11,559 nucleotides of DNA, taken from NCBI GenBank assembly GCA_030430725.1, contig JAUIKP010000052.1, positions 1-11,559 of the forward strand, read 5' to 3'. The stretch is from Nitrospiria bacterium (GTDB lineage Bacteria; Nitrospirota; Nitrospiria; Nitrospirales; UBA8639). Below the pieces are notes generated by a model. It did not search any database. It was not told where the DNA came from and was given only the letters and a program-made list of their open reading frames with translations. The stretch's first letter is position 1; each line of letters opens with the position of its first letter. The position numbers were made by a program, and so were the translations under genes. Positions 655 through 11,559 of this stretch are shown here, one piece after another.

Positions 655-2043
655 TTAGTTGGGAAATATTTCAAAAATATTGTCGTGCAGGGTCCTGACT
701 TGTATGTGGTGAAATCTTCCTAAAGCCTGTTGTAATCGCTCGATGCGTTCTTCGATATGCGCCAGGGTGATTTCAGGGAAAATGTGGGTCAGATAATTGT
801 AGCGTTGCGATCGGTTTTGATTGCCCATGCGAAATTGCGCGTTGAATCGGCGTCGTAATTTTCTGCCAATGGCCTGAGATTTTGCGGCGAGTACCGTTCC
901 CCATTTCGGGGTCGGGGGTGAAATAGTGGCGTCGAATATTTCCAGCGTATTCACGATGTTTTCCGAGGCAAAAGGCCCTTGGAGGGCTGCCAGGTATTGC
1001 TCAATTAAGCGGGTTTTGGCTTCAGAACCATTTTCCTGCGCAGACTGATCATCTAAGGTTGTTTTGATGAGTTCAATTAATTCCGAAGAGCTAGTTGTCT
1101 TGCGGCTAACGGCATTCGGCAGTTGTTTGTCAAAACGGTCTGAGGTGATCGGTTGATAGGAAAAAACAGGACGTTTCAGGACATATCCTTCCAAGCCGGT
1201 GGTGCAACTATTATGAATGATGGCATCGGCTGCCAATAGCCAGGGAATGACATGCCCTTCTATATGCACCTGGACATTGGTATATCCGTTCGCGGCCTGC
1301 TTCCATGTCTCGTGGTTTTCAGAGGGATGGGGACGGATCAAGATGGTATGAGCGGGAAAGGCTGCGGCCATTTGGCCGACCATTTCCTGAAAATACTGGA
1401 ATAGCGCGAGACGGTGGCGGGCCATCCCAAGATCAAATTCGTCCACATCCGATGGTGCGACTGCTGCCCGTTCAAGCGCTTCCTTTTCCGCACCCTTGTT
1501 AGGCCTGAAGTGGTTCAACTTGCCAAAATTGGTATTGATGAGGATGATTTTTCCAAATTTTTTATGGATAGTTTCGACTTGCGGCGTCCAATATTGGCGC
1601 ATTTCAGGCCGCAATAAATCCACACGGGAATTTCCCGTTATATGCACAGGCATTCCGTTGTATTTGGGTTGGGACTTCCAGATTCTGGCATTTTCTGGTC
1701 CCCATGCTAAAAAGAGATTTGGACGGGAAAATTCTGTCGAGCCCAATTTTTCCTTCACATACACTTCCGGAGAACAATACACAATGGCTTCCTCGTCCGT
1801 TCCTACCAACGAATGCCCCAATTTGGCCAGGAGGGAGAAGACGATAGAGTTCCGGTTATGAAGATTGGTGGGGAGGTAGATAGATTTGGGTAAAGCGGCA
1901 AGATTGAGTTGAATTTCGCGCTTTTCCCCAATAATGACAGTAAATCCACGCTCTGCGGCGAAGCAGGAAAGCAAAACTTTGGCGTCAAATTCCCTATTGA
2001 AGATTTCTACGGGAATGGTGAGACGGTGGCGGGGTTTTGTCAT
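655..2043 (-). CDS. Surface carbohydrate biosynthesis protein (GT-B-like)
   Basis: This 462-residue protein begins with a short strand and an IPVE(I)xxREFDAKVLL segment (about 10-25). It has the layout of the surface carbohydrate biosynthesis family, whose members sit in LPS and capsule loci and look like GT-B glycosyltransferases or CDP-glycerol-type transferases. Recognisable pieces are ITGNSRVDLL (about 135-144), IRPHPSENH (236-244) and HNSCTTGLEGY (277-287). The last two resemble the donor-binding end of GT-B enzymes. The C-terminal 80 residues are basic and helical. The ATG at 2043 has only a weak GGGA upstream. It follows the ELM1 ORF by 65 bp and precedes the Gfo/Idh gene by 94 bp on the same strand. 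No signal peptide or membrane segment is seen, so it should be cytosolic. The acceptor and donor are unknown. Confidence 0.8.
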   Translation of the reverse strand: MTKPRHRLTIPVEIFNREFDAKVLLSCFAAERGFTVIIGEKREIQLNLAALPKSIYLPTNLHNRNSIVFSLLAKLGHSLVGTDEEAIVYCSPEVYVKEKLGSTEFSRPNLFLAWGPENARIWKSQPKYNGMPVHITGNSRVDLLRPEMRQYWTPQVETIHKKFGKIILINTNFGKLNHFRPNKGAEKEALERAAVAPSDVDEFDLGMARHRLALFQYFQEMVGQMAAAFPAHTILIRPHPSENHETWKQAANGYTNVQVHIEGHVIPWLLAADAIIHNSCTTGLEGYVLKRPVFSYQPITSDRFDKQLPNAVSRKTTSSSELIELIKTTLDDQSAQENGSEAKTRLIEQYLAALQGPFASENIVNTLEIFDATISPPTPKWGTVLAAKSQAIGRKLRRRFNAQFRMGNQNRSQRYNYLTHIFPEITLAHIEERIERLQQALGRFHHIQVRTLHDNIFEIFPN

Positions 2044-2108: not shown

Positions 2109-2831
2109 TTACCGGTGATCAAAGATTCCAAGAGTGGCTTTGACTTTTCGGGCGACTGTTTCCGTTTCCTTTAATTGCGGGCGTGTCCCGTTTGTAATGG
2201 GTTCTCCGAACGGCCGGGCCATTCCACTTTTGATAAGGGAATCGTGCAACATGGCCAGATTTCGACGAGGTTGCACCAATCCCACACGCATGAGCCGAGC
2301 GCAAAGACGTTCCAATCCTTGTTGGGGACGAGCGGTTCCCCGTTTATTCAAGGGTTGGGATTGGGCCCGTTGAATAATCTTCTCACTGAGCCGTACCTTC
2401 CATGTTGGGGAATTTTCCGGAAGCGGGACAATATAAACCGGCTTAGCTAAAGAGGCTGCCTCAGCCAACATGGATTCGCTTTCTCCGGTGACGATAATGA
2501 CATCGGCACCAGCCAAATAGGCGAAATACGGATTGTCGGACTGGTTTGGCTTCCATGTATGAACATAATGATCCGGCAGCAGGGTCGACTCAAGCGCCAA
2601 GCTCAGATCTTTGCCTGTTCTGGGTGACGTGACGGCAAAAATTTTCCCATGGCATTGTTCTGCGAGGTCTTTCAGTTGTTTGCCAATCATCCGAGCCATA
2701 TCAGGGGAAAATTTGAACCGTGCAGTGGAACCCCCCACGACAAAGACGATGCGGGGATGTGGCGCCTTGTCAAAGAGATTGGGCCATCGCTGCGTAACTC
2801 CGTCCAGTCTTTCCTGGGTTAATTCATTCAA
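2109..2831 (-). CDS. C-terminal half of an ELM1/GtrOC1-family putative glycosyltransferase (split from the upstream ORF)
   Basis: The product is about 240 residues. It carries the second half of the ELM1 domain (PF06258 type): PRIVFVVGGSTARFKFS (about 26-42), the central ADVIIVTGESESMLAEA (109-125) and PVYIVPL (131-137). The first half (WILSDGKVGH to VVITPSYYGFP) lies at the end of the upstream ORF, one frame away. The only in-frame start before the domain is TTG at 2831, overlapping the upstream TGA as TTGA. There is no Shine-Dalgarno before it, and the next ATG codons fall inside the domain. This is therefore most likely the displaced 3' part of one gene broken by an indel. Translation by termination-reinitiation or a -1 slip is an alternative. 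ELM1/GtrOC1 proteins have a GT-B-like fold, and the phage GtrOC1 modifies O-antigen. The reading frame downstream of the break is long and well conserved. Confidence 0.7.
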   Translation of the reverse strand: MNELTQERLDGVTQRWPNLFDKAPHPRIVFVVGGSTARFKFSPDMARMIGKQLKDLAEQCHGKIFAVTSPRTGKDLSLALESTLLPDHYVHTWKPNQSDNPYFAYLAGADVIIVTGESESMLAEAASLAKPVYIVPLPENSPTWKVRLSEKIIQRAQSQPLNKRGTARPQQGLERLCARLMRVGLVQPRRNLAMLHDSLIKSGMARPFGEPITNGTRPQLKETETVARKVKATLGIFDHR

Positions 2832-4513
2832 CGAGGAAAGCCGTAATAGGATGGAGTAATGACGACATCAAAGAAGTCAGCGGAACATCCTCCTTTTCGT
2901 CCCAATTGAATAATCCGTGTTTTTCCCCGGCTTTGTTCACGAATCCATCTGGCAATTGGTGCCGGTCGCCAACCGGTAGAAATCACGAGGTCGGGCCAGG
3001 GGGGGCAAAGAGGGGAAGAGCGAACTCTATTTATGCCTATTATATTGGGAGGGAGTAATCCCCACACGAGTTTTTGGATTTTATGCCATCCGTAGAATCG
3101 CAACTTTTTAATTTCATAAGGCCACCCCAAGGACTTTGCGAGTACTTCTGATTGAGTGGTATGTCCAACTTTGCCGTCTGAGAGTATCCAGGTTCGCGGG
3201 GGAGAACCGATCCAATGCCCTCCACAACGGATAAATCTCTGAGGAATTCCCTTGGGTGTTTTAGTATGGAACGCCAGCTTCCAGTGTATAGCCGGATAGC
3301 GGGCGCCAATTGTTTCAAGGTGACTCATCCACCAGTTCATATCTTGTTTCGATCCGGTGTGAGGAGTTTCAGCAGCATAGGGTTGTCCCGGGTTGGTAAG
3401 ATCTATCGCCACAAAGACCATGCCATGTGCACGGGTAAACATTTCTTCAAAAACCCACGGGATATCTTCATCTGGGACGAGATGAAGCCCTCCGGGTGAC
3501 AGGACCAGGTCGAATTGTCGGGAAGGCAGTGGGTCTGAGTCTTTTTGACAAAGATCCAATGAGGTCATGGTTAATGAGGAAAGGTCGGTATCCCGAAGGT
3601 GTTCGGGAACACTGTCGGAAAGTTGCCCGAAATGACAGTACAGAAGCGACTTGGCCTGGAGGGTGCGCACCGCTTCTTGAAGGTCGTGAATGGTCTCGAT
3701 CTCCTGGAAAGGAGATTGTTTCGAAGGGGAACTATTCCGGAGATCCTTTGCCTGTTTAGCAAATTCTGAAAATAGCGAGGAGGGATGTTTCCGAGAAAAT
3801 AAAAGGAATCCTTTTTGGTTGGCACTGTGTTCCAAATTAAACCAAACATCGCCCTCAAGGCTTTTTTGGTACACAAATTCCTGAGGAAAGGGCTGCCAAG
3901 GTTGCGTATGGAGAGCCGTATAATGGAGAACTTTTGACTGGCCTTCCCGATATTCTTCATCACGGGCATTCCATTCGGGTTCCAATGGACCCCAGAGGTT
4001 GGGTACTTCCAAGGCGCGCTGCACCAGCGCGTTTTTTCTCTCGAATTGTGCCGCCTCAAGAGACCAAATGGCAGCCATTTTTTTGCAATCCATGACCATT
4101 ACCGAAGTATCATTCTGTGCGATCGAGAGAAAGCCATGATCGTGCAAATCGTGGTCGAATAATATTCCAGGATCCGCCAGGTAGATTTGATCGACATCGT
4201 TGTAAATCGCTCGTCCTGCCTGACCGGCAAATGTCGGGATCGCAAATCGATAATTTGTAAACCCCGTCAGCCATTTGCGTCGGTCAAATCCCTTTAATTC
4301 CTTCATGAGATATATTTCGTATACTCGAGCCGGATCGCGAACCTGTTCAATTGACCAGATGAGTATACGTTCGGCTCGGCCTTGGGCTGATTCGCTTCCA
4401 ACGAAAATTCGCACCGGAGTTGTTCCAGAGGGAGCGATGCCTTTTCTGACCTCCAAAATGATTTTTTCGGGTATTACCCTGATGCCGTTGGGTCTAGAGC
4501 GGTGACGTGACAT
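2828..4513 (-). CDS. Fusion protein: GT8-like glycosyltransferase, degenerate SAM methyltransferase-like domain, and N-terminal half of ELM1
   Basis: The ORF encodes 561 residues in three parts. Residues about 33-250 resemble a GT8-like GT-A glycosyltransferase: VRIFVGSES (34-42), RAIYNDVDQIYLADP (101-115) with the DVD metal-binding motif at 106-108, and VMVMDC (138-143). Residues about 285-415 follow the outline of a class I methyltransferase: FDLVLSPGGLHLVP (334-347), then a helix with WVFEEMF, and WW at 394-395. However, the glycine-rich SAM loop is absent and the usual VLEH box reads GLHL, so this part is probably inactive. Residues 441-561 are the first half of an ELM1 domain (TWILSDGKVGH, CPPWPDLVISTGWRPAP, FFDVVITPSYYGFP), which then stops at TGA. 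An in-frame TAA lies six codons upstream of the ATG at 4513, so that start is nearly forced. The gene begins 60 bp after spt. The likely role is sugar transfer in glycolipid or surface glycan assembly at the cytosolic face. Confidence 0.75.
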   Translation of the reverse strand: MSRHRSRPNGIRVIPEKIILEVRKGIAPSGTTPVRIFVGSESAQGRAERILIWSIEQVRDPARVYEIYLMKELKGFDRRKWLTGFTNYRFAIPTFAGQAGRAIYNDVDQIYLADPGILFDHDLHDHGFLSIAQNDTSVMVMDCKKMAAIWSLEAAQFERKNALVQRALEVPNLWGPLEPEWNARDEEYREGQSKVLHYTALHTQPWQPFPQEFVYQKSLEGDVWFNLEHSANQKGFLLFSRKHPSSLFSEFAKQAKDLRNSSPSKQSPFQEIETIHDLQEAVRTLQAKSLLYCHFGQLSDSVPEHLRDTDLSSLTMTSLDLCQKDSDPLPSRQFDLVLSPGGLHLVPDEDIPWVFEEMFTRAHGMVFVAIDLTNPGQPYAAETPHTGSKQDMNWWMSHLETIGARYPAIHWKLAFHTKTPKGIPQRFIRCGGHWIGSPPRTWILSDGKVGHTTQSEVLAKSLGWPYEIKKLRFYGWHKIQKLVWGLLPPNIIGINRVRSSPLCPPWPDLVISTGWRPAPIARWIREQSRGKTRIIQLGRKGGCSADFFDVVITPSYYGFPR

Positions 4514-4573: not shown

Positions 4574-5803
4574 TTAATTGAGAGTTGCACCTGGTTGTAC
4601 GTGAGCAGGGCTGATGTGGGTTTGAGTTCCATGAGACATGTCGGCAAATGCCGCAATAATTTTTTCAATTTGTTTGTGTGTATGAGCGGCACTCACACTG
4701 CATCGCAAGAGGCATTCGCCATTTGGAGTGGCAGGAGGAATCATGAGGTTGACATAAATCCCATTTTCCAAAAGTTGTTGCCACATGGTGAGAGCCAATT
4801 CTTTATTGGGGACCATTGCGGCAATGATAGGTCCTACCTCCGCCCCTAAAATGTACCCACTCTTCGTTAACCCTTCATATAAATTCCGGGAATTGGTCCA
4901 CAGATGCTGACGGAGTTCCGGTTGAGTTTGGATGATGCGAATGGTGGCTCGTGTCGAAGCAACAACTGACGGGCATGGGGAAGCGGTGAAAATATAGGGT
5001 CGACTGGTGTATCGGATTAATTCGAATTCGGGATGGAAGCTTATGCCGAATCCTCCCGTCGAGCCCAGGCTTTTGCTGAATGTCCCGACAATACAATCGA
5101 CGTCCTGTTCGACTCCTGTTTCTTCGGCTAAGCCACGGCCATGTTGTCCGAGTACCCCCAACGAATGCGCTTCATCAACGATCAGGGTGGCCCCATACTT
5201 TTTCTTCACCTCGACGATTTCAGCCAACGGGGCTCGATCACCCAGCATGCTATAAATGCCCTCAACGACAATTAAGGTTCGATAACTTCGATCCCCCAAG
5301 CGACGGAGCCGTTTTTCCAAATCTACCACGTTGTTATGCTTAAACCGGATAATCTCTGCGCCTCCAAGTCGGCATCCATCATAAATGCTGGCATGGGAGT
5401 CCCCATCTATCAAAATAGTGTCCCCGGGGCCTGCAAGAGCAGAAAGCACTCCAAGATTGGCCTGGTAGCCTGTTGAAAAGACAATGGCATAAGGCGCACC
5501 ATAGAAATCCGCGATGGCCTTTTCCAGCGCTTTATGGCTCGCAAAGGATCCATTTGCCATTCTCGATCCGGTGGTGCCGGTTCCTTCCTGGGCAAGCGCC
5601 TGTTGGGCGGCTGTGATGGAATCAGGATGAAAGGTCAAACCTAGGTAGTTATTGGTACCAACTAGAATGGTCTTGCGACCGTTGATAATGGCTTCTGTCG
5701 GGGAAATAATTTTTTCGACGGTGACGTGAAACGGATTGACCCCACTTTTCAGTAACTCGTTTCTGGCTTCTTGGATGGGAAGAAATTTGTCAAATAATGA
5801 CAT
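4574..5803 (-). CDS. spt: Serine palmitoyltransferase (PLP-dependent alpha-oxoamine synthase)
   Basis: This 409-residue enzyme should condense L-serine with a fatty acyl thioester, giving 3-keto-dihydrosphingosine, CO2 and free carrier: the first committed step of sphingolipid synthesis. Visible marks are SPTEAIINGR (34-43), GTTGSRMANGSF (76-87), the PLP-stacking His137 in DSHASIYDG, VVEGIYSMLGD (179-189), Asp210 and His213 in VDEAHSLG, the Schiff-base Lys244 in TFSKSLG, RPYIFTASPCPSVVA (268-282) and LLRCS with Arg367 (365-369). SPTEA, EGIYSMLGD, RPYIFTAS and PPATP fit Spt rather than BioF, Kbl or HemA. Where Sphingomonas Spt has Arg378 just before PPATP, this protein has Ile355. It starts 2 bp after the ACP stop, implying translational coupling and an acyl-ACP substrate. 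It is a cytosolic homodimer by family. The residue assignments come from remembered Sphingomonas numbering. Confidence 0.92.
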   Translation of the reverse strand: MSLFDKFLPIQEARNELLKSGVNPFHVTVEKIISPTEAIINGRKTILVGTNNYLGLTFHPDSITAAQQALAQEGTGTTGSRMANGSFASHKALEKAIADFYGAPYAIVFSTGYQANLGVLSALAGPGDTILIDGDSHASIYDGCRLGGAEIIRFKHNNVVDLEKRLRRLGDRSYRTLIVVEGIYSMLGDRAPLAEIVEVKKKYGATLIVDEAHSLGVLGQHGRGLAEETGVEQDVDCIVGTFSKSLGSTGGFGISFHPEFELIRYTSRPYIFTASPCPSVVASTRATIRIIQTQPELRQHLWTNSRNLYEGLTKSGYILGAEVGPIIAAMVPNKELALTMWQQLLENGIYVNLMIPPATPNGECLLRCSVSAAHTHKQIEKIIAAFADMSHGTQTHISPAHVQPGATLN

Positions 5804-5805
5804 GA

Positions 5806-6051
5806 TTACCCTTTCAGCAACTTCTCAATCTCTTCGCCCAGGTCCTTGACTGTTCGGATATTGGGAAGATTATTCAGAGGGATGGAAATATCAAAGTGAT
5901 CTTCGATTTTTAAGAGGACTTGCATGACTTGTAAGGAATCCAATCCCAGTTCTGCGACCAGCTCGGTTTGTTCTTTTAATTGAAAGCCTGGTTTGGTAAA
6001 AGGCTTGAGGGTGTCGAACAGTTGGGGAAGGATGGCGGAATAACTCATCAT
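5806..6051 (-). CDS. acp: Dedicated acyl carrier protein for sphingolipid synthesis
   Basis: The product is 81 residues with the four-helix ACP pattern. The phosphopantetheine-attachment motif is GLDSLQVM, with Ser39 preceded by Asp38. The following IEDHFDISIPLNNL segment (about 49-62) matches helix II to III of type II carrier proteins. It is a stand-alone ACP with no fatty-acid-synthase genes beside it. It sits between the epimerase gene (42 bp upstream) and spt (2 bp downstream), so it most likely carries the acyl chain from the ligase to Spt, as proposed for the Caulobacter locus. Two adjacent ATG codons (6051 and 6048) could start it. AAGAAGG lies about 10 bases upstream and fits either. 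It must be modified by a phosphopantetheinyl transferase encoded elsewhere. Confidence 0.9.
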   Translation of the reverse strand: MMSYSAILPQLFDTLKPFTKPGFQLKEQTELVAELGLDSLQVMQVLLKIEDHFDISIPLNNLPNIRTVKDLGEEIEKLLKG

Positions 6052-6093
6052 ATTATAATTGCCTTCTTAATGGAGGAAGAGAACAAGGCTGTA

Positions 6094-7035
6094 CTACTCC
6101 CTATGGGATGGCATGAGCCTATCCGATGTGAACAACCGACGCAAGCCTTCTTTGAGGCTGATTTGTGGCGTCCAGCCGAGCGTCTGCGTCGTGTGCGTAT
6201 CACAGACCCAATTGGGGTGGAGAAGTTCAGCAACTTTCCCGCTGGTGAAAAGGGGAGTGTATCCAAAGAGGCGGGAACATATTTCATTACTTTTCCCACC
6301 TATGTGTAATAGGCTTGGTGGAATATGTACGCGCAGGCGGAGGCAGGGATTAGAAAGGCGAAATACATCCTCCCAGGAATATCCCCCAGGGAACCCGTCA
6401 TCAATCTCAAAGGTTTGAGAAGGTGGGTCTCCATTTTTTAGCCAATGAAGAATCGCGCTGGCGAGATCCTCCACATGAATTAAGGAAAATTTGGCTTGGG
6501 AAGGACCGAGTTGAACCCCAATCCCTTTGCGCAACAGGGTAAAGAGGGGTAGCAGCGCACGATCTTTCGGTCCATAGACGGCAGGTGGACGAAAAATGCT
6601 CCACGTCAGTGTTCCTGCCTCACGAATTAAGACAGATTCACCTTCATGTTTGCTCCATGCATATGGTGAAAGTGATGGCTCCCGAGCGGCGAGAGATGAG
6701 AGAAGAACAAACCGCGGAAGAGGGAATTGTGCAAGACAGGCTTGAATCAGGTTAGAGACGCCCATGACGTTTGTTGTATGGAAGCCTTCTCGACTAACGC
6801 CGCGAATCGCTCCTGCACAGTGAATGACACCGACCGTATCTTTGACTAGGGTTAACAGACTGGCAGGATCTTCCAATTGGCCTTGGACCGGCGTGATTCC
6901 CAGTCCCTTGAGCTTTTGAGCCTGACTGGGAGAACGCACGAGTCCACGCACATGCCATCCGCTTTTCATTAGATGTTGTGCGATGACTCCACCAATGAAA
7001 CCGGAAGCCCCTGTTAGGGCAACGGTAGTGCGCAT
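6094..7035 (-). CDS. cerR: NAD(P)-dependent epimerase/dehydratase-type reductase, candidate ceramide reductase CerR
   Basis: This 313-residue protein is an extended short-chain dehydrogenase. The nucleotide-binding motif TGASGFIG is at residues 8-15. D56 (QLEDP) and HCAGA (72-76) follow, with LLSSLAA around the catalytic Ser113/114, and YAWSK with Tyr125 and Lys129 as the catalytic pair. RPPAVYGP (149-156) is the usual extended-SDR substrate-side motif. By sequence alone it could act on a sugar nucleotide or a lipid ketone. Its place between the acyl-AMP ligase and the ACP/Spt pair, the same order as Caulobacter cerR, favours reduction of the 3-keto group of the long-chain base or 3-oxo-ceramide. 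The gene begins 36 bp after the ligase and ends 42 bp before the ACP. The ATG at 7035 lacks a clear Shine-Dalgarno, so coupling to the upstream gene is likely. Function is inferred mainly from context. Confidence 0.78.
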   Translation of the reverse strand: MRTTVALTGASGFIGGVIAQHLMKSGWHVRGLVRSPSQAQKLKGLGITPVQGQLEDPASLLTLVKDTVGVIHCAGAIRGVSREGFHTTNVMGVSNLIQACLAQFPLPRFVLLSSLAAREPSLSPYAWSKHEGESVLIREAGTLTWSIFRPPAVYGPKDRALLPLFTLLRKGIGVQLGPSQAKFSLIHVEDLASAILHWLKNGDPPSQTFEIDDGFPGGYSWEDVFRLSNPCLRLRVHIPPSLLHIGGKSNEICSRLFGYTPLFTSGKVAELLHPNWVCDTHTTQTLGWTPQISLKEGLRRLFTSDRLMPSHRE

Positions 7036-7071
7036 AGACCGTGGAGGACGTGTGAGAAAAGGTGTCTGGTC

Positions 7072-8841
7072 TTAGGCAGACCCAGCGGTGGTAGACAAGT
7101 TGGTAGTCACCTCTTCCCACTGAATGCGGGTAAGGAAGTCCGCTTTGGCACGAGATCGAGATAGTTTTCCAGATGACGTCCGCGGAAGTGTTCTAGGTGG
7201 GATGAGTTCAATATAGCATGGAATAGACAACTCTTTGTGCACTAGGGATCGTAGGCGCTGAACCAGGTCTTCACGCTTTTTGTTATCCATTTCACGACAT
7301 TGAACCACTATGATTGCGATCTCATGGCCGTCTGGTGTGGAAACGGAAAAAGCTGATGAATCACCTGGTCGGACTTCGGCCTGTTGCTCTGCCATGAATT
7401 CTAGATCCTGAGGCCAGATATTTCGTCCATTAATGATAATCATATCTTTGGAACGTCCAATAATGACGAGACTGTTTTCGACCCAATAGCCAATGTCGCC
7501 CGTATTGAGCCAGCCATCAGATGAAAGGACCTCCTGGGTCAAGATGGGATCATTGAAGTATCCCGTCATGGTACTTGCTCCACGAACAAAAATTATTCCA
7601 CTTTCCCGTTCTTTAACGACATCTCCCGTCATAATATTTCGAATTTCGACTTCATATCCTGGGAGAGGAACTCCGCAATTCACAAATTTGCTACATCGAG
7701 CCTGTTCCTCATCAGTCAATGTTGGGATAAAGGGCATGGCTAATCTATTATTGGAAAGCTGATCTCCGTCAACTCTGTCTACTTCGAGGCCCTTGTTCAA
7801 GGGAGCAAAACTAATTGCCAAAGAACATTCAGCCATCCCATAGCAGGCGAGAAATGCTTCAGATTTAAACCCACTCGTCTTCAGGGTTTTGGCAAAACGT
7901 GAGAGGCTATCGGCACGAATGGTTTCTGCTCCAGCACCCGCAATTCGCCAAGAGCTGAGATCAAAGTGTTCATTAAAGTCTTCGCCTAATCTTCGTACGC
8001 AGAGCTCGTAACCAAAGGAAGGGCTGAATGAAATTGTCGCCCGGCTCTTCGTCATTAAATTCAGCCATTGACGTGGGCGCATGGCAAAATCACGTGTGCT
8101 CAAATAATCAACGGAAAGCTGGGAAGCGATTGGACCAAGAACGAATCCGACCAATCCCATGTCATGATAGAAGGGAAGCCAGGAGACGCAACGGTCACCG
8201 GATTGAACTTTGAGGCCATGCTGGATGATTCCTGAAAGATTGGTCATCACGGCCGATTGAGTGACCTCGACGCCCCTCGGCCAACGGGTGCTACCGGAGG
8301 TGTATTGAATATAGGCTAATTCTTGAGGCTCAAGGGGGTTGAGCGGATCCTGATTTTCTTTTAGTGAGGCGAATATTTCCGGACCTCCAATGAGGACCAT
8401 GTCCAAACCGGTTGCTGCTTCCTCCAAAAATGGCAAGAAGCCTTCAGGTGCCATGGCGATGGAGGCTTGGCAGCTTTCGAGCAGCCGATTAAGTTGGGTG
8501 ACGTATGCCTGATGCCCCCCTAAATGTAAGGAAATCGGAAGAGGAACCGGAATGAGTCCGGCATACTGACAGGCAAAAAAGAATCGAATGAAATCTGGGG
8601 TGGTGTCAGCGATTAAAGCCACCCGAGACCCTCGTGATAATTCCAATCCGTTCAATTTTCTGGCTAGGTTCTGAGCCTGTTGTTGTAGATCGGCATATGT
8701 CAGGACGTGGGTGAGTTTGCCTCTCCCCGAATAGAAGTTACAGCCTGTTTCTCCTGAAGCAGCATAATCAAGGGCCTCTGAAAGGGTAGAGAAGTTCCCA
8801 TATTTAAGTCTGAGTTGGTGATGTGTTGGTGTAGCGTTCAT
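7072..8841 (-). CDS. aas: Fatty acyl-AMP ligase / acyl-ACP synthetase of the sphingolipid locus
   Basis: The product is 589 residues, a full-length adenylate-forming enzyme of the fatty acyl-AMP ligase type. Adenylation motifs in order are: YTSGSTRWPRGV (180-191, ATP phosphate loop), PFYHDMGLVG (223-232, an FAAL/FadD32-type segment), GAGAETI (302-308), ACYGMAE (332-338), TGDIGYW (447-453), GRSKDMIIINGRNIWP (462-477, hinge) and the C-terminal SSGKLSRSRAK with catalytic Lys559. It should activate a free fatty acid with ATP and pass it to the ACP encoded two genes downstream, supplying acyl-ACP to Spt. The phosphate loop has Arg189 where Lys is usual. It is the first gene of the minus-strand run, preceded by 218 bp of AT-rich non-coding DNA. 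The ATG at 8841 has a weak GAGAAAG before it. The symbol is assigned by analogy with Caulobacter. Chain-length preference cannot be read. Confidence 0.88.
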   Translation of the reverse strand: MNATPTHHQLRLKYGNFSTLSEALDYAASGETGCNFYSGRGKLTHVLTYADLQQQAQNLARKLNGLELSRGSRVALIADTTPDFIRFFFACQYAGLIPVPLPISLHLGGHQAYVTQLNRLLESCQASIAMAPEGFLPFLEEAATGLDMVLIGGPEIFASLKENQDPLNPLEPQELAYIQYTSGSTRWPRGVEVTQSAVMTNLSGIIQHGLKVQSGDRCVSWLPFYHDMGLVGFVLGPIASQLSVDYLSTRDFAMRPRQWLNLMTKSRATISFSPSFGYELCVRRLGEDFNEHFDLSSWRIAGAGAETIRADSLSRFAKTLKTSGFKSEAFLACYGMAECSLAISFAPLNKGLEVDRVDGDQLSNNRLAMPFIPTLTDEEQARCSKFVNCGVPLPGYEVEIRNIMTGDVVKERESGIIFVRGASTMTGYFNDPILTQEVLSSDGWLNTGDIGYWVENSLVIIGRSKDMIIINGRNIWPQDLEFMAEQQAEVRPGDSSAFSVSTPDGHEIAIIVVQCREMDNKKREDLVQRLRSLVHKELSIPCYIELIPPRTLPRTSSGKLSRSRAKADFLTRIQWEEVTTNLSTTAGSA

Positions 8842-9059: not shown

Positions 9060-9503
9060 CTAATTTATAGGTTCATGAATCCAGTTATTTTTGAGGTGAC
9101 TTAAAATGTTTTGGTATACCTCTTCCGAAATGTCATTGGCATTTTTAAGAAGTGGTGGCCCCGGCCATCCATGGTCAAGGAATCGCTGTTGAGAAAATAC
9201 TTGAGGGGTGTCATATCGCGGGATGACATGGAAATGAACCTCTGGGTCAACCATCATCAACATCAGGTAATTTATTTTGCTATAGGCAAATATGCGTGAG
9301 ACGCTAGTTTCAATTTCACCAATGATCTTTGGTAGTTCTTGAAATGCATCGGCACTAATTTGGGAAAATGCGATGGCCTCCTCTCGACAGATCAGTACCA
9401 GTGAGCCAAGGGTCACTTGTTGAGGGCGTAAAAGCACAACCCATTGGGCAAATTCTTTTAGGCAGGTGTTGGGGTACCCAAATTTTTTCATCGTGGTGTT
9501 CAT
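9060..9503 (-). CDS. HIT-family (histidine triad) protein
   Basis: The product is 147 residues. VVLLRPQQVTLGSLVLICRE (22-41) is the start of the HIT fold. KINYLMLMMVDPEVHFHVIPRY (76-97) contains the HxH core with His90 and His92. The first His of a classical HxHxH triad is replaced by Glu (E88), while the usual nucleophile position (His90) is kept. A GWPGPP segment follows near residues 112-117. HIT proteins are nucleotide hydrolases or transferases acting on nucleoside phosphoramidates and dinucleotides; the substrate here is unknown. An ATG at 9503 is chosen because AAGGG lies seven bases upstream. A GTG at 9509 would be too close to that site, and an ATG at 9491 would trim the N-terminus by four residues. 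No signal peptide or membrane segment is present, so it should be cytosolic. It lies upstream of, and separated from, the sphingolipid genes. Confidence 0.85.
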   Translation of the reverse strand: MNTTMKKFGYPNTCLKEFAQWVVLLRPQQVTLGSLVLICREEAIAFSQISADAFQELPKIIGEIETSVSRIFAYSKINYLMLMMVDPEVHFHVIPRYDTPQVFSQQRFLDHGWPGPPLLKNANDISEEVYQNILSHLKNNWIHEPIN

Positions 9504-10043
9504 GAGCACGCCCTTATACCCAACGAGTCATCCTTATGTCTATGGGTCAATGGAACTCTCCTCTTCCCTATAGGCCCATATTGTCTCCTGCTCGGCATGT
9601 CGAACATATACCACGATTTTTGTGTCAAAACCTGGTTACAACATTATCATGTGACAAGGTTAGCATTAACCTCGGAATGGATTGAGCTGAATTTTGGGCG
9701 GTGGTGAGAGAGAGCAAAGCATTTCGTGAATGACCATTCCGACCTTCCGATTAGAAGTATTGATTTCCGATAGTCAATTCTTGTGCCTTCTTCTGCAGGT
9801 TTCTATAATTGGTACGCGAATGGTTCTTTCGCAACTGAGGTATTAGGGTGGATTGAGGGGAACAGCCAAAATTAAGGAGCCTTTCTACGTCTCCCGCTTT
9901 TGTTTTCAGTTGTCCCGTTTGGCGCAATAAGCAACAAGCGTTGACATGACACCGGATTTTGTATCGGGTGTCAGGATGCGGTGATGGGATTGCAATGAAT
10001 TGGTGTCGGATATCGGTGTTGCTAGGCAGGAAAAGAGGAGAGT
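9504..10043. other. Divergent intergenic region between the HIT and lipoprotein genes
   Basis: These 540 bp contain no convincing ORF in any frame, and no tRNA or transposase remnant was seen. The visible structures are a 6-bp perfect stem with a four-base loop (AGGTTA/TAACCT, 9657-9672) and the larger inverted repeat at 9947-9973 next to a TTGACA. The region must hold promoters for both flanking genes, which point away from each other. It is long for a simple divergent promoter and may hide a small RNA. Confidence 0.6.
9941..9973 (+). promoter_or_regulatory. TTGACA box fused to an 11-bp imperfect inverted repeat upstream of the lipoprotein gene
   Basis: A perfect -35 hexamer TTGACA (9941-9946) is followed directly by arms TGACACCGGAT (9947-9957) and ATCGGGTGTCA (9963-9973). 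The arms pair at ten of eleven positions around a TTTGT loop. The expected -10 position falls inside the right arm and has only a poor match (TATCGG at 15 bases spacing). The repeat could be an operator for a dimeric regulator covering the promoter, or a leader hairpin. The lipoprotein GTG lies 70 bp further on. No known regulator consensus is recognised. Confidence 0.4.
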
Positions 10044-10709
10044 GTGATAAGGAAAGTTTTGTTTCTAGTGTGGGTTCTTACGCTATTGGCAGGCTGTTCG
10101 AGCTCACCCAAGATCAAGTACGTTGATGTTTCTGTGCCTGAGCTCAATAGGTCCAGTACTGCGTATCTCGGGGAGACCCTGCTGATGCAGGCGAGGGGGT
10201 ACTACACTGATGTTGTGGAAGTGGGGAATATCACCGGTAGTTATGTCGCCATCAACGCGGGTAAGTATTGCCGACTGCCCGGTAGTGATGAGTACTTCAG
10301 TTTTGATAGTCGATCGATTCGGTTCATTAATTTTCTTGGTGGGTCCCGCGGTTATACCAGCCGGTTCACCTATGAAGAAGATTCCAATAAAATTTGTATT
10401 GACGATATGTGGTCAGGTTGCTTTGACTCATCATACGGCACTATTGCTTTTAAAAAGAACACCCTTTGTTCTGATCCCAACTCGTTTCAGCAGATCATCG
10501 AATACAATGGCAGGGCTGGTGATATTCTAAATTTTACGTCCCGCGAATTTAGTGGCGATAGGGTGAAAGCACCTTACACCACCAATTTCACGATGGATAC
10601 TTCTGAAGGTGATACGTTGAGGTATAAGGGTGCACAATTGAAAGTGGATAAGGCCACCAACCAGCAGATCGTATACAGGGTGTTAAGGAATTTTAATAAA
10701 GCGGAATAA
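10044..10709 (+). CDS. Putative lipoprotein of unknown function
   Basis: The product is 221 residues. The N-terminus has Arg3-Lys4, a hydrophobic stretch (about 5-16) and a lipobox LAGC with the lipidation Cys at 18, followed by SSSPK. This is a clear signal-peptidase-II signal, so the mature protein should be anchored in the inner leaflet of the outer membrane or in the inner membrane. Residue 19 is Ser, which does not suggest inner-membrane retention. The mature part is polar and probably beta-rich, with four further Cys residues (in YCRLPG, KICIDD, SGCFD and TLCSD) that could form two disulfides in the periplasm. It ends in LKVDKATNQQIVYRVLRNFN. I do not recognise the family. The GTG start is preferred because it supplies the basic n-region; GAGGAG ends three bases upstream, rather close. 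It is monocistronic by position and diverges from the HIT gene. Confidence 0.75.
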   Translation: MIRKVLFLVWVLTLLAGCSSSPKIKYVDVSVPELNRSSTAYLGETLLMQARGYYTDVVEVGNITGSYVAINAGKYCRLPGSDEYFSFDSRSIRFINFLGGSRGYTSRFTYEEDSNKICIDDMWSGCFDSSYGTIAFKKNTLCSDPNSFQQIIEYNGRAGDILNFTSREFSGDRVKAPYTTNFTMDTSEGDTLRYKGAQLKVDKATNQQIVYRVLRNFNKAE

Positions 10710-10727: not shown

Positions 10728-10978
10728 TTTAAAGTGCATGCGGTTGAACCATCACCCCAACACCGTGAGGGATCTCTCTTTTTTTTATTAATGTCAGGAC
10801 ATGCCTTCCAATTTTCTTCAAACTCATGCCAGAAAGCCCCATGCTTTGCACGGGGATGAATGGCATCCATTTTAGGAGGTTTGGGGGACAGACTTTCCAA
10901 AATTTTCTTTAAAGGTTTTTGATAATTCCTGCCCTTTAGGCGGAGAGTCTCACGTGGTCGATGTGCTTGCGAAAGCAT
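10728..10978 (-). other. Protein-like open frame with internal hairpin in the intergenic gap; possible repeat element or gene remnant
   Basis: The 366-bp gap from 10710 to 11075 has no assignable gene, but the minus strand stays open from ATG 10978 and on through the 3' end of the lipoprotein gene. The part lying in the gap reads like real protein (segments such as PLKKILESL, AKHGAFWHEFEENW and KACPDINKKKRD), while the part antisense to the lipoprotein does not. It has no Shine-Dalgarno. A stem CCCCATGC/GCACGGGG (10837-10855, one wobble pair) lies inside it. A short interspersed element or a decayed small gene would explain both. I do not recognise a family. Confidence 0.25.
10767..10786 (+). 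terminator. Weak candidate terminator of the lipoprotein gene
   Basis: A short GAGG-GATC-TCTC hairpin (four pairs, one of them a wobble) is followed immediately by a run of eight T (10779-10786), 57 bp after the stop codon. The T-run is convincing but the stem is weak, so termination efficiency is uncertain. Confidence 0.3.
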
Positions 10979-11075: not shown

Positions 11076-11559
11076 GTGTTAACCAGCCACTGGTATCGTG
11101 AAAAATATCTCCTTGATCGTATGACATTTCGCGATTTGATGTGGGCATACGTCCTATACCCGAGTATTCAGCTGTATGCGGTTTTATTGGCTTGTAGTAT
11201 TATCAGTGCCTTCGTGCTTTTCCATTATTTCCCAGTTTCAGCGTGGCGCGTCGGAGGAAGTATCGTGGCGACTCTGCTGGCTTACCCATTCGTGGAATAT
11301 GCGGTTCATCGATATATTTTACATGGACGATATCTCTATCGGTCGCCATGGACGGCAGCTTTGTGGAAACGCATTCATTATGATCACCACCAGGATCCCA
11401 ACGATTTGCGGGTGCTGTTCGGGGCAGCTTCCACCACCCTGCCGACGATTGTTGTGGCCACCTTCCCTATCGGGATGAGTATTGGTGACTGGGTAGGGGC
11501 TGCCCTTTCTTTTGCGACAGGATTGGCGTGTTTTATGGTGTATGAACTCTGTCATTGCA
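11076..11559 (+). CDS. Fatty acid hydroxylase/sterol desaturase superfamily membrane protein, N-terminal part (cut by window edge)
   Basis: An open frame of 161 codons runs off the right edge, so the C-terminus is missing. A hydrophobic stretch at about 24-52 and another at about 60-73 are likely membrane segments. They are followed by the di-iron histidine boxes of the superfamily: HRYILH (His78, His83) and HYDHH (His101, His104, His105). DPNDLRVLFG (107-116) follows, then a further hydrophobic region and YELCH (His160) that opens the third box. Such enzymes hydroxylate or desaturate fatty acids, sterols, carotenoids or the acyl part of sphingolipids at the membrane. The preferred start is GTG at 11076, with AGGG seven bases upstream, giving an amphipathic N-terminus; ATG 11121 is the alternative. 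It is on the opposite strand about 2.2 kb from the sphingolipid operon, so a role in lipid hydroxylation there is suggestive only. Confidence 0.82.
   Translation, partial: MLTSHWYREKYLLDRMTFRDLMWAYVLYPSIQLYAVLLACSIISAFVLFHYFPVSAWRVGGSIVATLLAYPFVEYAVHRYILHGRYLYRSPWTAALWKRIHYDHHQDPNDLRVLFGAASTTLPTIVVATFPIGMSIGDWVGAALSFATGLACFMVYELCHC

Follow-up and report, generated by a model that had tools for sequence, protein, structure and literature searches.

Five genes have been assigned to bacterial dihydroceramide synthesis, namely aasR, epi (cerR), acpR, spt and aca (CC_1154; yghO in Escherichia coli BL21), the first four of which follow one another in the same order in Caulobacter crescentus, E. coli BL21 and Nitrosomonas eutropha, and the formation of 3-oxo-sphinganine in E. 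coli required that serine palmitoyltransferase (Spt), acyl carrier protein (ACP) and acyl-ACP synthetase be expressed together (PMC9386255). Further genes described in C. crescentus encode a kinase (CC_1160), a CDP-diacylglycerol-synthase-like protein (CC_1161), a CDP-alcohol-type enzyme (CC_1159), two nucleotidyltransferases (CC_1152 and CC_1153) and an additional copy each of LptF and LptG (PMC11324152), and CpgD, the counterpart of CC_1152, has been found to make CDP-glycerate (PMC12275187). Here we describe a Nitrospirota contig (JAUIKP010000052.1 of assembly GCA_030430725.1) of 11,559 nucleotides, called the window throughout, where four minus-strand open reading frames at 4574-8841, with intergenic gaps of 36, 42 and 2 bp, encode counterparts of AasR, CerR, AcpR and Spt. 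From the observed gene content, gene order, family placement and co-occurrence, we regard the window with considerable confidence as one half of a Caulobacter-type island for making, decorating and exporting sphingolipids.

A first-pass annotation, made from the letters of the DNA, had placed these four genes correctly and had likened their content and order to the C. crescentus locus, whose order in PMC9386255 is indeed the same. Its picture of a complete-looking four-gene front end holds for the four genes and understates the system: the same island also includes a hydroxylase, a ceramide synthase, a second LptF/LptG pair and genes of head-group type. The window is a contig (C291) of a genome of 3.5 Mb in 551 contigs, 83% complete (G000). 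Its Spt is 98% identical to that of NPIRA03, the nearest among the named metagenome-assembled genome (MAG) records of Nitrospirales, and 95% identical to that of Candidatus Nitrospira neomarina (Nitrospirota, Nitrospirales in the NCBI taxonomy), a protein that NCBI already names 'serine palmitoyltransferase'. By sequence, the host is close to both, a relative of marine nitrite-oxidising bacteria, and the Nitrospirota origin that had been raised as a condition agrees with the Nitrospirales names of the nearest records and with the NCBI taxonomy.

Core genes and identity of the Spt

The identities proposed in the first-pass annotation (ligase, extended reductase, ACP and Spt-like enzyme) are all backed by family matches. 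The aasR-type gene (7072..8841, minus strand) encodes a fatty acyl-AMP ligase or specialised acyl-ACP synthetase of 589 aa that reaches 785 bits on PRK09192 (cut-off 600) and is 45% identical to AasR of E. coli BL21 and 47% to the plasmid copy of P. veronii. The cerR-type product (6094..7035, minus strand; 313 aa), presumably the 3-oxo-sphinganine or oxo-ceramide reductase, is an extended short-chain dehydrogenase/reductase (SDR) matching PF01370 (epimerase/SDR), with the motifs GASGFIG and Y125-x3-K, 41% identity to E. coli BL21 CerR and NDUFA9-type chains among its PDB matches. The acpR-type gene (5806..6051, minus strand) specifies an ACP of 81 aa (PF00550) that shares 36% identity with E. 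coli BL21 AcpR over 73 residues and in which Ser39 of GLDSL is the presumed phosphopantetheine site. The longest stop-to-stop frame of the window has 591 aa and mononucleotide shuffles (100 of them) reach 294 aa only, so the open reading frames are not due to chance. In the window, a tRNA scan found no tRNA and Rfam gave no match, whereas promoter and terminator scans yielded 11 and 4 matches versus 9.4 and 7.4 in shuffles. The order aasR-cerR-acpR-spt is kept in 18 of 19 other Nitrospirales spt loci (spt itself being broken in one, L055), the nineteenth (L064) stopping inside cerR, and two more stretches (L014 and L018) likewise show it.

The spt gene (4574..5803, minus strand; 409 aa) was assigned with the curated NCBIfam equivalog NF047599, whose 500 bits served as membership threshold for Rhodobacteria-type Spt, and its product exceeds this value with 629 bits. 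The scores on the other Spt models stay under their cut-offs (AlphaP, 518 versus 670 bits; CFB, 370 versus 640), as do those on TIGR00858 bioF (342/426), on two Kbl models (324/460 and 289/493), on ALAS (223/339) and on the CqsA-type NF005526 (226 versus 428). Residue alignment showed that the lysine expected to bind pyridoxal phosphate (PLP), K244, is kept together with H137, D210, H213 and R367, residues that, to judge from the alignment, mark an oxoamine synthase and not an Spt in particular, since the BioF, Kbl and HemA rows keep them too. The best PDB relatives of the protein are the Spt chains of Sphingomonas.

A tree of 51 rows, comprising no CqsA or polyketide-type row, placed the window Spt among 19 Nitrospirales Spts (support 96/89), nested in a 100/100 clade with the Spts of S. 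wittichii, Sphingomonas paucimobilis, E. coli BL21, P. veronii, Rahnella, Roseomonas and Diaphorobacter. This clade includes crystallised and biochemically tested Spts and holds no BioF, Kbl or HemA row, so that the grouping with BioF, which the first-pass annotation had thought of as an adverse outcome, was not found. The BioF of the host is a separate gene on another contig (C487), scores over the TIGR00858 cut-off and falls outside the Spt clade. Some BioF rows of this tree are long branches, and two further rows, one BioF-like from Desulfovibrio and one unassigned from Bernardetia, lie at the base of the Spt side (89/82 and 94/82, respectively). For a second tree, of 49 rows, ten rows were removed (the Bernardetia row, two Kbl, two HemA, four long BioF and one BioF of G038) and 8 of 11 database proteins were added; the broken Spt pieces of genome G018 were excluded from both trees. 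The Spt clade was again 100/100, and the Nitrospirales rows were not exclusive, six other proteins standing among them, five of unknown source and one with the name Deltaproteobacteria. A BioF or Kbl identity of the window Spt is rejected on the scores under cut-off together with both trees.

Ceramide synthase, hydroxylase, head-group-type genes and LptF/LptG

The fifth gene, a ceramide synthase of the CC_1154/YghO type, does not lie within the window. A search with the YghO protein of the P. veronii plasmid locus against 37 genomes located it on another contig of the same genome (C334:8372-9490; E 5.6e-124), as a bacterial ceramide synthase (bCerS) 49-50% identical to the query. The 37 genomes, also used for the LptF/G, LpxC and ELM1 counts below, were chosen from 59, the 22 others including Spt-bearing G010, G011, G012 and G041 (whole or piece); 24 are Spt-positive, counting G018, with its two broken pieces, and G047, with an internal TGA. 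A bCerS was found in 23 of these 24 and in none of the 13 Spt-negative genomes. Scans of the YghO protein against Pfam and NCBIfam gave nothing up to E 0.001. PF04339, considered as a ceramide synthase marker, was discarded: at E 1e-3 it matched 11 of the 24 Spt-positive genomes and 3 of the 13 Spt-negative ones, 14 of 37 in all, and only 4 of these matches were over its cut-off.

The gene set extends past the four core genes on both sides, with a glycosyltransferase-like gene 60 bp after spt (see below) and, upstream of aasR, a gene of the HIT type and a hydroxylase gene. The HIT-family-like protein of 149 aa (9060..9509, minus strand), a conserved neighbour of aasR, is 51% identical to an annotated HIT protein of a Roseomonas sphingolipid locus, and Pfam and NCBIfam scans gave it no match of its own. 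The hydroxylase (11076..11558, plus strand), truncated by the contig end, resembles the fatty acid hydroxylases Scs7 and FA2H (PF04116, 36.8 bits, cut-off 31); its full-length relative in NPIRA03 (L013) matched, up to E 1, the chains 4zr1 and 4zr0 of Scs7, a ceramide hydroxylase of yeast, and no other PDB chain (E 1e-13), and the histidine motifs are invariant across 8 aligned relatives. The enzyme may act on ceramide. A small predicted lipoprotein (10044..10709, plus strand) is probably not part of the sphingolipid system; among the loci searched with it, only the window and NPIRA03 carry the gene. Between the lipoprotein and hydroxylase genes, 172 bp (10789-10960) have no counterpart in NPIRA03.

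In relatives, bCerS sits just past the point where the window ends, behind the Scs7-like hydroxylase. Both C291 and C334 terminate inside the hydroxylase gene, and their ends align to the NPIRA03 locus at 95-96% identity, that of C291 down to 4419 and that of C334 up to 4229, which leaves 189 bp of a single hydroxylase gene between them in this relative. The pair bCerS and hydroxylase diverges from HIT-aasR-cerR-acpR-spt in 14 Nitrospirales loci (L013, L015, L016, L019, L020, L054-L057, L060, L061 and L066-L068); as exceptions, L017 stops inside the hydroxylase gene and G254 (L089) has the same arrangement without hydroxylase, and in G021 the island halves are on separate contigs, with no hydroxylase match. 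Past bCerS, C334 carries genes for two NTP transferases, LptF, LptG, a CDP-alcohol transferase, a diacylglycerol kinase (DAGK)-type kinase and a Tam41-like protein, a run present entire in C334, L054, L055, L056, L059 and L097, and partial or ending sooner in the other stretches.

The host genome has two LptF/LptG pairs, on C486 and C334. Exactly two PF03739 genes were counted in all 13 Spt-negative genomes, whereas 20 of the 24 Spt-positive ones have four, three genomes have three (G001, G017 and G027) and one has none (G047, 73% complete), some matches being truncated by contig ends. The same link is seen inside one genus (g5), where G023 and G030 combine Spt, bCerS, four LptF/G genes and ELM1, while G033 lacks Spt, bCerS and ELM1 and has two LptF/G genes. 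Lipopolysaccharide is probably kept alongside the sphingolipid, because LpxC is found in 35 of the 37 genomes (it is missing from G006 and G014, both Spt-positive drafts).

As to substrates, head group, hydroxylation and transport, the predicted functions would fit a pathway in which AasR activates a free fatty acid as its adenylate and transfers it to AcpR, and Spt condenses acyl-AcpR with L-serine to 3-oxo-sphinganine. The Scs7-like enzyme would then probably hydroxylate the amide-linked chain, and the kinase, the Tam41-like protein, the two nucleotidyltransferases and the CDP-alcohol transferase of C334 would probably build a phosphate-containing head group, for example phosphoglycerate, and the second LptF/LptG pair would move the lipid on in the direction of the outer membrane.

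Carbohydrate neighbours and alternative readings

The gene next to spt encodes a glycosyltransferase-like protein ending in an ELM1 domain (GT/ELM1), which the window assembly holds in two different frames, an N-terminal part (2828..4513, minus strand; PF06258 at residues 450-555) and a C-terminal part (2109..2831, minus strand; PF06258 profile positions 120-271). In NPIRA03 it is a single frame of 811 aa (L013 11291-13726), the alignment breaking at 2833-2839 of the window and 12971-12996 of L013. The predicted structure of the fusion had a mean confidence (pLDDT) of 52.9. A separate Roseomonas gene (L079 3082-4032) resembles part of the fusion (E 3.5e-7 to window 2828-4513), which suggests that two partners became joined in one protein. 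GT/ELM1 adjoins spt in 10 of 19 loci and is not beside it in 7 (L016, L057, L058, L060, L062, L064 and L066), while 2 (L019 and L089) end too soon to tell; in genomes such as G020 and G027 ELM1 lies on a different contig from spt. An ELM1 domain was found in 19 of the 24 Spt-positive genomes and in none of the 13 without Spt, and among 14 control genomes in Caulobacter only, the E. coli control, whose Spt is over cut-off, being without it. Farther along come a surface carbohydrate biosynthesis protein (655..2043, minus strand; TIGR04396, 343 bits, cut-off 125) and a Gfo/Idh/MocA oxidoreductase that runs off the contig (3..560, minus strand; PF01408), both of uncertain link to the lipid. Downstream in six relative loci (L013, L015, L017, L020, L054 and L061) there is a NeuB-like gene, and the three of them that reach far enough (L013, L015 and L017) also have a PseF-like gene. 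On the spt strand of L013 (16391-19483), a NeuB-family synthase with a fused cupin domain is followed by a HAD-like gene and a PseF-like cytidylyltransferase; by its predicted products this segment is a nonulosonate pathway beside the ceramide genes.

These neighbours lend themselves to a reading in which the Spt product, glycosylated by the ELM1 fusion, the TIGR04396 protein and the nonulosonate genes, would be an anchor that resembles a long-chain base and carries the adjacent surface polysaccharide, and not a free ceramide lipid. The succession of spt, GT/ELM1, TIGR04396 and Gfo/Idh genes, the NeuB- and PseF-like genes of relatives and the confinement of ELM1 to Spt-positive genomes speak for it, as does an ELM1-like protein of A. 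baumannii needed for core sugar transfer and discussed as a possible core glycosyltransferase (PMC10936431). However, conservation is higher for the ceramide set, bCerS and LptF/G included, than for the sugar part, and the inconstant position of GT/ELM1 also argues against it; we hold this reading to be unlikely. A glycosylated ceramide made in addition would be compatible with these findings. Its furthest extension, an outer membrane coated with an Scs7-hydroxylated ceramide whose head group would be lengthened by GT/ELM1 and the nonulosonate genes into a ganglioside-like acidic glycosphingolipid, exported by the second LptF/LptG pair, is a speculation to which we give only a slim chance. Still less probable is that the enzyme is an oxoamine synthase serving another function (of the BioF, Kbl, CqsA or polyketide type), to which the ACP and the ligase are dedicated. 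Family resemblance and the name '8-amino-7-oxononanoate synthase' given to close homologues in JGI sources favour it, and a related set of fatty acyl-AMP ligase (FAAL), ACP and Spt stands beside nonribosomal peptide synthetase (NRPS) and P450 genes on the Diaphorobacter plasmid pDCB2, so the module can be redeployed; yet the bioF, Kbl, ALAS and CqsA-type scores are all under cut-off, the 51-row tree, within its sampling, places the enzyme with Spts, the host has its own bioF over cut-off, and Spt of the window type co-occurs with bCerS. That the contig is a contaminant or mis-binned and not from Nitrospirales, as the fragmentation of the assembly might suggest, is hardly credible, given that 19 of 20 genomes of the host genus hold Spt or a broken or cut copy, including two single-contig genomes with the whole locus (G009 and G018), and that matching records are titled Nitrospirales, Nitrospira or Nitrospirota.

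Several observations weigh against the sphingolipid island that we favour. AcpR is 25-36% identical to its three comparators. One Spt-positive genome (G008) lacks bCerS; as the contig breaks off within the hydroxylase gene, this is probably due to a gap in the assembly. In G038 and G044 bCerS is distant from spt. The contiguity of C291 and C334 is deduced, the genome being 83% complete and in many contigs. In G018, a single-contig, 100% complete genome, spt occurs as two overlapping broken frames (L055 14254-15484), the other genes of the locus being full frames. The head-group assignments are domain-based, some of them weak (Tam41, 23.0 bits, cut-off 24). Finally, the position of Arg378 of S. 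paucimobilis Spt is Ile in the window Spt and Leu in that of E. coli BL21, for which reason substrate handling may differ from that of the Sphingomonas enzyme. The E. coli BL21 Spt has been used as an active enzyme, with use of acyl-AcpR reported (PMC9386255).

Distribution and comparison with known systems

Spt over cut-off was found in 29 of 146 Nitrospirales genomes and in 6 of 295 Nitrospirota genomes, all six Nitrospirales; one genome (G333, 8% contamination) has two such genes. Six further Nitrospirota genomes score 435-447 bits, under the NF047599 cut-off (G127, G219, G109, G190, G249 and G135; L090-L095), and carry a trio of SDR, Spt and bCerS, with no aasR or acpR match within the stretch read. 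Of these six Spts, those of G127 and G219 were scanned, and both have their best score with the Bacteroidota-type model, at 578 and 593 bits (cut-off 640). By these scores, sphingolipid gene sets of two kinds seem to exist within Nitrospirota.

In a literature search judged by title, none of the papers listed dealt with sphingolipids in Nitrospirota or in nitrite-oxidising bacteria. Hopanoids are mentioned in the paper that describes the cultivation of Ca. N. neomarina. According to a Black Sea survey, MAGs from 38 phyla encode Spt-like proteins, and the candidate phyla rise to 40 (PMC11334938); its main text does not contain 'nitrospir', and Nitrospirota may be among the 38. The novelty is therefore one of host order and locus, not of mechanism. 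Nitrospirales include widespread nitrite oxidisers (PMC10579370), and membrane surveys that credit sphingolipids to eukaryotes, Bacteroidota or Proteobacteria would, if our reading is true, miss a source. The claim is directly testable because Ca. Nitrospira neomarina, cultured and with a closed genome, carries the gene set. Moreover, the route of sphingolipids to the outer membrane has been called unknown (PMC11324152), and the link of Spt with a second LptF/LptG pair offers for this transport question presence/absence pairs of close relatives (G023 and G030 versus G033).

The locus of E. coli BL21(DE3) (L040) is alike in having aasR-cerR-acpR-spt, a divergent yghO (cerS) and lptFG nearby, with an Spt 58% identical to that of the window, and differs in its yghRST- and YtfJ-type genes; the 25 kb read gave no match to the kinase, CDP-alcohol or Tam41-like genes. 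DNA resembling part of the window spt, the best matches covering 57% of it, occurs in 3205 of 5426 complete E. coli genomes. Nitrosomonas eutropha is an ammonia oxidiser of the Betaproteobacteria. Also a nitrifier, it has by locus tag the same four-gene order (Neut_0458-0461), with cerS at Neut_1100 (PMC9386255). On the Diaphorobacter conjugative IncP plasmid pDCB2 (L042), FAAL-ACP-Spt occurs with NRPS, P450, ELM1 and SDR genes, the Spt reaching 582 bits on NF047599.

The 17 kb locus of the Roseomonas mucosa plasmid p1-AD3 (L079) has FAAL, SDR, ELM1, ACP, Spt, Tam41-like, DAGK, CDP-alcohol transferase, HIT and LptF/G genes. The C334 kinase, CDP-alcohol transferase and Tam41-like protein are homologous to genes of this Spt locus, whose proteins match window or C334 with E-values of 4e-78 (CDP-alcohol transferase), 4e-49 (Tam41-like), 7e-47 (HIT), 9e-35 (ELM1) and 3e-24 (kinase), and weakly for ACP (7e-6) and LptF (3e-7). 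Its metallophosphoesterase, GT4 and GT39 proteins matched nothing in the window, C334 or L013, and the metallophosphoesterase, as nearest query, thereby revealed no counterpart of CC_1158 in these stretches. The Roseomonas locus differs in that FAAL-SDR stands apart from ACP-Spt, ELM1 is a separate gene, Spt is 53% identical and no bCerS match was found in the stretch read.

With C. crescentus (CC_1152-CC_1168), the island shares the order aasR-cerR-acpR-spt and a cerS in a separate transcription unit (PMC11324152, PMC9386255), and has, by domain, putative counterparts of CC_1152, CC_1153, CC_1159, CC_1160, CC_1161 and LptF2/LptG2. It departs from that system in its Nitrospirota host, in the Scs7-like PF04116 hydroxylase beside cerS, where C. 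crescentus uses a DesA-type gene located elsewhere (PMC11324152), and in the ELM1 domain that NPIRA03 carries within one 811-aa protein after spt.

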